Below are positions 6,775-10,123 of a stretch of 41,690 bases of DNA, piece after piece (position 1 is the first letter of the stretch; every line of letters begins with the position of its first letter). A program made the position numbers and the translations under genes. The DNA comes from Alphaproteobacteria bacterium (lineage in GTDB: Bacteria > Pseudomonadota > Alphaproteobacteria > Caulobacterales > Aquidulcibacteraceae). The notes under the pieces are model-generated. The model saw only the letters and a list, made by a program, of their open reading frames with translations. It ran no database searches and was not told the DNA's origin. The DNA lies in assembly GCA_027484265.1 (NCBI GenBank), contig JAIXTH010000293.1:1-41690 (forward strand), in the 5' to 3' direction.

Positions 6775-7521
6775 ATGCGTCTGACTGCCCTGATGCTCGC
6801 GGGCGCCTGCGCCCTGACCGCCGGCTGTGCCGCCACCCGTGAGGAGCTGGCCAATGTCGGCCGCCCGCCGGCGCTGACCCCGATCCAGGATCCGTCGATG
6901 GATGCCACCGGCCGGCGCCAGGTGGTGATGCCGATGCCCGCCAGCCAGACCCAGCAGCGCAGCACCAACTCGCTGTGGCAACCCGGCGCCCAGCAGTTCT
7001 TCGCAGACAGCCGCGCCAGCCAGGTGGGTGACATCCTCACGGTCAATATCGCCATCAACGACCGCGCGCAGCTGTCGAACCAGACCAACCGCACCCGCAG
7101 TTCCGAGCGCTCGGCCGGCGTGTCCAACTTCTTCGGCCTCGAGAACCTGCCCGGTGAAGTGCTGCCCCAGGGCTTCGATCCGTCGAACCTTGTGGGCATG
7201 GAGAGCGAGGGCAGCTTCCAGGGCCAGGGCGGCGTGACCCGCCAGGAGCGGGTGGATCTGACCGTGGCCGCCGTGGTGGTGCAGGTTCTGCCCAACGGCA
7301 ATCTGGTGGTGGCCGGCCGCCAGGAAGTACGGGTCAACAACGAGGTGCGCGAGCTGATCGTGTCTGGCATCGTGCGCCCGCAGGACATCACCGCCGCCAA
7401 CACCGTCCGCCACAACCAGATGGCCGAAGCCCGCATCGCCTATGGCGGCCGCGGCCAGCTGAGCGCCTACCAGCAACCGCCCGTCGGCGACCAGGTCCTG
7501 GGCATCATCTCGCCGTTCTAG
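6775..7521 (+). CDS. flgH: Flagellar L-ring lipoprotein FlgH
   Basis: Lipobox-like LTAGC; FFADSRASQVGDILTVNIAINDRAQLSNQTNRTRSS...NGNLVVAGRQEVRVNNEVRELIVSGIVRPQDI. Confidence 0.96.
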   Translation: MRLTALMLAGACALTAGCAATREELANVGRPPALTPIQDPSMDATGRRQVVMPMPASQTQQRSTNSLWQPGAQQFFADSRASQVGDILTVNIAINDRAQLSNQTNRTRSSERSAGVSNFFGLENLPGEVLPQGFDPSNLVGMESEGSFQGQGGVTRQERVDLTVAAVVVQVLPNGNLVVAGRQEVRVNNEVRELIVSGIVRPQDITAANTVRHNQMAEARIAYGGRGQLSAYQQPPVGDQVLGIISPF

Positions 7522-7665
7522 GCGGGCATTTCTCTCGATCCTTGCATCCCTTGCTCGTGAGCGGATCAGGAGAGCTCGAAGGCGGCCTGAGGACAAACTA
7601 GCCAGACTGCGCCAGAAATGAGATAAAGGGCGAGGTTCGATCTTACTCAGCCCCCGAGGTGAGAA

Positions 7666-8232
7666 ATGGCTTCGATCACGCAGGGCTCCCGCCCGGACAA
7701 AGGAACCATCCTCGAGGATCGGGCTGTCGAATGGCTCAAGAAGCGCTTTCCATCGGCAAAGCTTTACGCTCATGCTGCCCAGATCACACCCGAGACAGCA
7801 AAGAAGCGGCTGGCAAATGATGATCTCGACCGCCGAGGGCTGCGTCTCTCGGAGTTGGGCCGAGCCATCGCTGATGACTGGCAGGACTTTATCGAGGAGG
7901 TTTGGCGGCCAACCTTCGAAACGCCGGACGAGAAACTTGAGAACCGGATTCACGCCCTAAAGCAGCAGCTTGCTGAGCTTGAGACAGTCCATTCCAGTAA
8001 GTCAGTGCTGCACAGGGCAACTTTGCTCACGGATGGCACCAATCAGGCTGTACAGATACCCAACGACTTGCAGTTGCCAGGCTCGACTGTCTCGATCCGG
8101 CGGGTGGGCAATTCGCTCTTGATTGAACCCATGGAGCAAATGGGGCTGGTGGAGTGGCTGGCATCGCTTGAGCCGCTGGATGAGGACTTCCCGGAGATGG
8201 ATGATCGGATACCGGAGCCCTTCGAGCTGTGA
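7666..8232 (+). CDS. VapB-like (swapped-hairpin AbrB/SpoVT-type) antitoxin with about 110-residue N-terminal extension
   Basis: C-terminal HRATLLTDGTNQAVQIPNDLQLPGSTVSIRRVGNSLLIEPMEQMGLVEWLASLEPLDEDFPE is VapB-like. The N-terminal KRFPSAKLYAHAAQITPETAKKRLANDDLDRRGLRLSELGRAIADDWQDFIEEV looks helical/HTH-like, followed by a coiled-coil stretch. GTGA overlap with vapC. Confidence 0.8.
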   Translation: MASITQGSRPDKGTILEDRAVEWLKKRFPSAKLYAHAAQITPETAKKRLANDDLDRRGLRLSELGRAIADDWQDFIEEVWRPTFETPDEKLENRIHALKQQLAELETVHSSKSVLHRATLLTDGTNQAVQIPNDLQLPGSTVSIRRVGNSLLIEPMEQMGLVEWLASLEPLDEDFPEMDDRIPEPFEL

Positions 8233-8633
8233 GCGCTGTTCACCTGCTCGATACCAACGTCATCTCCCACCTGATCCGGTTTCCGGCGGGCATAGTCGCA
8301 CAGCGCATCGCGTCTTTGGGTTCGGGCCGAGTGGCGACCAGCATCATCGTGGCGGCGGAGCTGCGGTTTGGTGCTGCCCGCAGACCAATGCCGGAACGGG
8401 ACAGGCGGATTGATACTCTGCTCACAAAGCTGCCTGTCTTGCCCTGGAGTGAGCCGTGTGATCGCGCCTACGGACGCCTCCGGGCCGATCTGGAGGCCAC
8501 CGGGCAGATGATCGGCGCCAATGATTTGCTCATTGCAGCCCACGCGCAGGCACTTGGCCATATCCTGGTGACCGATAACATCCGGGAGTTCGCGCGCGTA
8601 CCAGGGCTGAATATCGAGAACTGGCTACGATAG
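8229..8633 (+). CDS. vapC: VapC-type PIN-domain ribonuclease toxin
   Basis: LLDTNVISHLIRFP; ATSIIVAAELRFGAARR; MIGANDLLIAAHAQALGHILVTDNIREFARVPGLNIENW: canonical acidic PIN residues. GTG start overlaps the antitoxin stop. Confidence 0.93.
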   Translation: MSAVHLLDTNVISHLIRFPAGIVAQRIASLGSGRVATSIIVAAELRFGAARRPMPERDRRIDTLLTKLPVLPWSEPCDRAYGRLRADLEATGQMIGANDLLIAAHAQALGHILVTDNIREFARVPGLNIENWLR

Positions 8634-8651: not shown

Positions 8652-8885
8652 ATGATGGAGCACGACAACGAGAAGATCGATGACGCAGTATTGGCGCTGC
8701 TTTGGCTTGGCGGGCATGGCGAAGGGCGGACCTAGAAGACATTTGACTGGGGCTCGCTGGACCGCCTGCACAAGGCTGGTTGGATATCGAATCCCAAAAG
8801 TGGCGCCAAGAAAGTGGCTTTCAGTGAAACCGGTGCCAAGCGCGCGCAGGAACTCTTCGAGCAAATGTTCACTCGCAGGCAATGA
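8652..8885 (+). pseudogene. DUF6429-like small protein gene interrupted by in-frame TAG at 8733-8735
   Basis: Manual frame: MMEHDNEKIDDAVLALLWLGGHGEGRT*KTFDWGSLDRLHKAGWISNPKSGAKKVAFSETGAKRAQELFEQMFTRRQ*. Homology-like signal continues in one frame on both sides of the amber codon. Confidence 0.75.
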
Positions 8886-9035: not shown

Positions 9036-9728
9036 TCACACGGCAACAACATCGAACTCCGGCGTGCCGCGCCAGTGGAGCTGCCAGCTGGCTCCGGGCC
9101 GCACATTGCGGACAACAGAGGGCTCGAAGGCAACGAAGCACCGGCCACCTGGATGGCGCACCGACGGGTAGACCAGACCGCCATGCCCCTGTCGCACCAG
9201 CTGACGGGCGATGCTCTGCCCCTCCGGGTAACCGATGGCAGGATCTGCATCGAGTGCCGGGTGAGCCGGCTCGTCGCCAAGGTCGGGGAACTCGCCGATC
9301 ACGTCCGCCAGCAGCTCGACATAGATGGCGCTGTCATGGAACACACCGACGAAGGCCAGCTCGCGGGTGCGGTGAAAGGCCACTTCGGCGATGGATGTCA
9401 GGACGGTCCAGCTGGCATACCAGGCCCCGCGCTCCTCGCCATTGAACCGGTTGCCGCCCCTGCGCGTGTAGGTGAAGGCGGCATTGACGTGCTCCAGTCC
9501 ATAGACGGCCAGGTCGCGGGCGCGGCGGCGCCAGGCCAGTTCACGCCGGTCAATGTGCGGGCTGCGGCCGGCCTCCGCCGTGAGGCGCGCGCTGGTCAGG
9601 CCCTCAAGTGAAGCCAGCACCTCCATCTCGTCATCGCTGTCGACAAGGCCGCGCAATACTGGTGGCCTGTGCGCGGTCTTCGGGATCAGACGGACAAGCC
9701 CGCGCTCTGCCAGCTGTGCGCGCCTCAC
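9036..9728 (-). CDS. RES-domain toxin (NAD-targeting family)
   Basis: GTG start at 9728: (V)RRAQLAERGLVRLIPKTAHRPPVLRG...FTYTRRGGNRFNGEERGAWYASWTVLTSIAEVAFHRTRELAF...YPEGQSIARQLVRQGHGGLVYPSVRHPGGRCFVAFEP. RES signature with GxRFN, W/Y and S-V-R-x-P-G. The track start at 10154 is an out-of-frame extension through the antitoxin. Confidence 0.88.
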   Translation of the reverse strand: MRRAQLAERGLVRLIPKTAHRPPVLRGLVDSDDEMEVLASLEGLTSARLTAEAGRSPHIDRRELAWRRRARDLAVYGLEHVNAAFTYTRRGGNRFNGEERGAWYASWTVLTSIAEVAFHRTRELAFVGVFHDSAIYVELLADVIGEFPDLGDEPAHPALDADPAIGYPEGQSIARQLVRQGHGGLVYPSVRHPGGRCFVAFEPSVVRNVRPGASWQLHWRGTPEFDVVAV

Positions 9729-10123
9729 ATGCCGCCCCGGAGCGCATCGAGATAGGTGCGCACCGACAGGAACTGCGGCAGGCCGAACCGGATCAGGGTG
9801 TCCACGGGCCTTGCACCCTCGAACAGCGGCCCACGATTGGGCAGGACAGGCCAGCGGTCGGCCAGGTCTGGCTCGAAGTAGAGGTGCAGCGCCTTGTAGA
9901 TGCCTACCAGCGCGCTGAGGCGCAGCAGCTGGTCTTGGGTCAGGGCGCCCGCAAAACCGGGCTTGCGGGCCCGCTTCCAGGTGCTTTCCGACATGTCGGC
10001 CAGCGCCGCCGCTTCGGCCGTGCCCAGCTTCCAGGCATCGGCGATCCGGGCAGCAGCCTTCAACGCGATGGCAGTCTGGTCGGGCGCCGACTTCTGACGG
10101 ATGGGAAGTTCCACGACGGTCAT
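9725..10123 (-). CDS. Xre/MbcA/ParS-type antitoxin (toxin-binding domain) of the RES module
   Basis: AARIADAWKLGTAEAAALADMSESTWKRARKPGFAGALTQDQLLRLSALVGIYKALHLYFEPDLADRWPVLPNRGPLFEGARPVDTLIRFGLPQFLSVRTYLDALRGG; stop overlaps the RES GTG start. Confidence 0.9.
   Translation of the reverse strand: MTVVELPIRQKSAPDQTAIALKAAARIADAWKLGTAEAAALADMSESTWKRARKPGFAGALTQDQLLRLSALVGIYKALHLYFEPDLADRWPVLPNRGPLFEGARPVDTLIRFGLPQFLSVRTYLDALRGGM

Follow-up and report, generated by a model that had tools for sequence, protein, structure and literature searches.

Introduction

Toxin-antitoxin families are modular, but how an antitoxin alters its DNA-binding part, step by step, can seldom be observed. In the AbrB-type VapBC system of S. 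flexneri, the VapB loop residues 8-11 including Arg10 have been modelled as base-reading and Lys18 as a backbone contact (PMC3384007), and cleavage of tRNA(fMet) has been reported for VapC of S. flexneri (PMC3384007) as well as of the alphaproteobacterial Bosea (PMC8522696). Two other antitoxin families illustrate how DNA-binding parts may be attached. PezA is postulated to have arisen when an epsilon orthologue gained a repressor HTH at its 5' end by fusion (PMC4803016), and HicB antitoxins are found fused to RHH or Xre domains, the HicB domain itself probably not being DNA-binding (PMC2701414). Here we analyze a vapB gene fused in frame to an N-terminal segment, located in a 41,690-nucleotide stretch of alphaproteobacterial DNA which is called the window in the following. 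The features of the locus are collected in Table 1.

Table 1 Features of the fused vapB locus in the window.
Feature	Position	Strand	Description
flgH-vapB intergenic region	7522..7665	+	neither a GGCATATGC/TATGC family operator nor a sigma-70-like promoter match; palindromes not above chance
Shine-Dalgarno GAGGTGA of the fused gene	7656..7662	+	anti-SD duplex energy -10.2 kcal/mol
Fused antitoxin gene	7666..8232	+	ATG start, 188 aa plus stop; C-terminal half matches NF040493; codon usage
Orphan N-terminal segment, residues 1-112	7666..8001	+	all-helical by prediction; searches gave no relatives
Candidate helix-turn-helix, residues 31-51, KLYAHAAQITPETAKKRLAND	7756..7818	+	inference only; helices 31-37 and 42-57, low-confidence AlphaFold2 model
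Short coiled coil, residues 89-110	7930..7995	+	L91 I95 L98 L102 L105 in a/d spacing; predicted helix 89-109
In-frame GTG, suggested internal start	8005..8007	+	without Shine-Dalgarno, +0.6 kcal/mol
AbrB/MazE-type domain, residues 116-155	8011..8130	+	core conserved; six of the seven conserved basic positions gone
VapC-binding tail, residues 160-188	8143..8229	+	matches family conservation pattern
vapC toxin, 134 aa, PIN domain	8229..8633	+	conserved acidic residues D8, E44, D99, D116

Reading frame and start of the fused gene

The open reading frame at 7666-8232 is intact and coding along its full length. Residues 116-188 of its product constitute a VapB antitoxin, with the VapB motif HRATLLTDGTNQAVQIPN beginning at residue 116. 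The C-terminal half matched the NCBIfam model NF040493 (TA_anti_VapB) with an E-value of 1.4e-10 and 41 bits, which is below the curated cutoff of 60, and PF04014 with an E-value of 0.051, while residues 116-188 aligned weakly (E about 0.02) to the solved VapB proteins of R. felis (3zvk) and to VapB1 (6nkl). An in-frame TGA at 7660-7662 is located just 5' of the ORF, and the 113 codons upstream of the VapB motif had a chance of approximately 1.5% of remaining open given the base composition. When codon usage was scored from the other genes of the window, frame 0 was on top among the six frames in both halves of the N-terminal segment, and the Shine-Dalgarno pairing at ATG 7666 ranks within roughly the top 1% of positions drawn at random from the window. 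Since the N-terminal frame is coding and carries its own start signal, it is by sequence criteria not an unexpressed read-through of a degraded neighbour, which was one of two doubts raised in an earlier note on this DNA. The other doubt, that homologues might start near 8005 with no conservation upstream, turned out to describe the relatives correctly, as detailed below.

The same note had pointed at the GTG at 8005 as a second start that could give a short, classical-length VapB beside the long one. This GTG is indeed in frame, but a strong ribosome-binding site precedes only ATG 7666 and GTG 8005 has none, so that the two-isoform antitoxin is unsupported. The gene could also be read as a classical short VapB starting at GTG 8005, with the upstream frame being unrelated. 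Every relative starts near this position, but the contrast in start signals (+0.6 against -10.2 kcal/mol) and the codon usage of the N-terminal frame make this reading very improbable. A single 188-aa protein from ATG 7666 is the likely translation product. The N-terminal segment (57% GC), vapB (59%), and vapC (62%) are all lower in GC than flgH (69%), which is consistent with their joint acquisition.

Relatives of the antitoxin were gathered as two sets, one by VapB similarity (32 loci, including the paralogue L002 in the same genome) and one derived from VapC (87 loci, among which L138 carries another type of antitoxin and L141 is truncated). All VapBs in the relatives begin close to the AbrB motif; about 115 VapB relatives were inspected, and not one carries the N-terminal extension. 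The N-terminal fusion proposed in the earlier note is confirmed. Long upstream frames at L027, L099, L148, L150, L162, L169, and L170 were considered as other fusions and rejected; where tested, these relatives have a start with a good Shine-Dalgarno sequence 3-15 residues ahead of the AbrB motif, and their upstream extensions do not match the N-terminus in the window. The fusion is known from a single metagenome-assembled case in one genome, and no further copy was found in the genomes searched.

Loss of basic residues and of the family operator motif

For the analysis of the AbrB half, we compared VapB with 85 relatives gathered via VapC and hence not selected by VapB sequence. Seven VapB positions are K or R in at least 91% of these relatives. 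The window retains only R146 from this group, whereas 36 of the 40 other class-conserved positions are retained (Fisher p=1e-4). The six losses are H116, T119, T122, T125, Q130, and S150, and N133 is an additional neutral change at a site that is basic in about half of the relatives. By motif spacing, rather than by alignment of the S. flexneri sequence, T125 corresponds to Arg10 and N133 to Lys18 of the S. flexneri protein. The basic count of this VapB is the lowest of all those compared, and its motif region carries a net charge of -1, as opposed to +2 or more in 84 of 87 relatives.

A similar loss was seen in the DNA. In 80 of 86 relatives the 120 nt preceding the AbrB motif contain TATGC or GCATA, with a mean of 2.3 compared to 0.23 in shuffled sequences, and GGCATATGC is matched at 8 of 9 positions or better upstream of vapB in 76 of the 86. 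Upstream enrichment was also found for GCATAT (62/86 loci), GGCATA (57/86), and CATATG (54/86), compared to about 2 in shuffles. Across L084-L171 the GGCATATGC / TATGC-N4-GCATA motif is conserved in the 120 nt upstream of vapB in about 90% of the family, and its position and symmetry suggest that it is likely to be the family-wide operator. Neither TATGC nor GCATA is found anywhere in 7522-8229 of the window, and there is no palindrome above chance in 7522-7665.

When the sequences were grouped by basic residues, the motif was absent in three of the four with three or fewer basic positions (the window, L097, L114, and L170) compared to 3 of the 83 others (p=7e-4), a grouping with small counts that was made after viewing the data. 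The VapB of L170, on a viral contig, holds 2 of the 7 conserved basic positions yet retains the operator motif, and is the exception to the co-loss.

The fusion and the double loss of basic residues and operator are well supported, and the AbrB half would no longer bind the ancestral operator. The suggestion in the earlier note of an antitoxin with two DNA-binding domains has thereby become doubtful, because with the basic DNA-facing residues and the family operator gone the AbrB half is probably not such a domain, while an HTH in the N-terminus is plausible but unproven. Since the basic DNA-gripping residues and the DNA switch are both lost, the control of the toxin pair has probably been rewired.

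The VapC partner and the surrounding locus

The GTG start of vapC at 8229 overlaps the stop codon of the fused gene at 8230-8232. VapC matched the PIN domain at 7.1e-17, its residues D8, E44, and D99 are invariant in the alignment, and D116 is present. It is nearest to the models of tRNA(fMet)-specific VapC (1.5e-31, below cutoff) and is predicted to be a PIN nuclease of the tRNA(fMet) type, which the VapB tail, by its conservation, would neutralise. One 3.07 Mb assembly (G000) held 16 PIN-domain matches.

Upstream of the fused gene, flgH ends at 7521. In 14 relatives the roughly 1.5 kb around flgH contain no homologue of vapC, Xre, RES, ate, or the fused gene, and none of these was seen in 14-16 kb loci of three of those relatives. 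Downstream of vapC lies a DUF6429 gene at 8652-8885 (+) (PF20008, 2.2e-21 when the stop is read as X), whose frame is interrupted by a TAG at 8733-8735. An Xre/MbcA/ParS-type antitoxin and RES toxin pair is found at 9045-10123 (-), before ate, so that the flgH-ate interval holds two toxin-antitoxin modules.

With a broken gene adjacent to it, a module that is missing beside flgH in the relatives, and a fusion not found elsewhere, the locus might be a decaying toxin-antitoxin island in which a recent accident fused vapB to an N-terminus without selected function. We consider this improbable, since the ORF is intact with a strong Shine-Dalgarno sequence, the VapB core, the tail, and the VapC residues are conserved, and the loss of basic residues is selective.

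vapBC genes behind gltB

In L097 (Methylorubrum, 1184-1896) and L114 (Aureimonas, 1187-1901) vapBC is located directly behind gltB, which ends at 1170 and 1171, respectively, suggesting transcription from the host gltB promoter. The VapBs of both loci have lost basic residues that are otherwise conserved, and the family operator motif is absent, which is the same double loss as in the window, and neither has an added N-terminal domain. As the DNA-binding face disappeared from these two with no new domain to take its place, domain replacement is not required for this loss.

The N-terminal segment

Residues 1-112 matched nothing in Pfam, PHROGs, NCBIfam, or PDB sequences. An AlphaFold2 model of this segment alone, of low confidence (pLDDT 63), contains helices at residues 12-27, 31-37, 42-57, 61-84, and 89-109, so that the helical and heptad-like blocks described in the earlier note are predicted as helices. 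The full-length model, with a pLDDT of 44, was too poor for use. The stretch YAHAAQITPETAKKRL looks helix-turn-helix-like by eye, K46 K47 R48 are found on the candidate recognition helix, and the first 67 residues of the fused protein are net basic (+5). The HTH-like character that had been proposed for the N-terminus is made plausible by the predicted helices and the TPETAKKRL-like stretch, but it found no profile or PDB sequence match, and Foldseek returned no fold match to the model at E<=0.001. A DNA-binding helix-turn-helix in this domain is thus plausible but unproven.

No relative of the N-terminus was found in overlapping sets of 60 genomes of the family, 249 of the order, 385 of the class, and 399 of the phylum, nor in the plasmids and phages searched; further order-level searches around other genomes covered 3-7 genomes each. 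Scans with peptide patterns, which detect close relatives only, were likewise negative across 84,980 species genomes and 2.9 million viral contigs. Matches in G216 and G084 were coiled-coil matches to a MotB/OmpA-like protein and were rejected, as was a match in G717 that contains a stop and overlies a non-matching place. The weak plasmid and order-level matches were at chance level, in unrelated proteins or in wrong frames. Queries with HTH-coiled-coil sequences found no family of this kind, and the match of the window to one such query was discounted as the query had been composed after viewing the window. We found no description of an HTH-AbrB VapB fusion in the open-licence papers that were searched.

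A real fusion may have brought in an N-terminus that serves dimerisation, stability, or partner binding, with vapBC no longer autoregulated but expressed either from the promoter of the captured upstream gene or through read-through out of the flagellar operon. An HTH match was found nowhere, an operator-like palindrome is missing from 7522-7665, and, judging from L097 and L114, vapBC may survive once the operator and the DNA-binding face are gone. The basic charge of the first 67 residues, with K46 K47 R48 on the candidate recognition helix, and the order of helices followed by a coiled coil, which suits a dimeric repressor, argue weakly against it. We regard an N-terminus without DNA binding as possible but rather doubtful.

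Proposed origin and comparison with known systems

The reading that we prefer starts from a vapB that would have been joined, with the frame kept, to the 3' part of a different small gene, a fusion that would have removed the native promoter, operator, and start of vapB. The 188-aa protein, translated from ATG 7666 as one product, would now owe its start signals and probably also a regulatory domain to the captured upstream gene. Judging from its conservation, the C-terminal tail should still wrap and inhibit VapC, and the AbrB half would be retained as a dimerisation core that, as the loss of residues suggests, no longer reads DNA. In the least certain step, the N-terminal helical domain and the coiled coil most likely give the operon a new dimeric DNA-binding or regulatory function. 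Our confidence in this reading, taken as a whole, is evenly poised. An N-terminus that took over DNA binding is the leading explanation, though unproven. The fuller version, in which the antitoxin swapped its DNA-reading module, so that an undescribed helical N-terminal family took operator binding after the fusion and the AbrB fold is a dimer scaffold only, is offered tentatively, at somewhat less than even confidence.

Compared to the AbrB-type VapBC systems of S. flexneri and R. felis (NF040493), the window shares the gene order, the stop-start overlap, the PIN acidic residues, the AbrB core, and the VapC-binding tail, but it differs by approximately 112 extra N-terminal residues, by the lost basic residues, and by the absence of the family operator motif. 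In the window, both the ancestral DNA-reading residues and the operator motif have disappeared, and the putative dimer core and toxin-binding tail are kept, with a new N-terminal domain alongside. The gltB-linked vapBC genes have in common with the window the loss of basic residues and operator motif, but they were placed behind a host gene without N-terminal addition, whereas vapB in the window was fused instead. Together the window and these two relatives make the joint decay of operator and DNA-binding face under another promoter testable.

The likeness to PezA lies in a gene fusion that adds a domain, regulatory in the window only by presumption, at the N-terminus of the antitoxin. The toxin family is unrelated, and unlike PezA the antitoxin of the window already had a DNA-binding domain, which is now degenerate, while the HTH nature of the new domain is only a candidate assignment. 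HicB differs in fold and in toxin, but resembles the window in the modular use of DNA-binding domains on an antitoxin, the domain in the window being a candidate for such a module.
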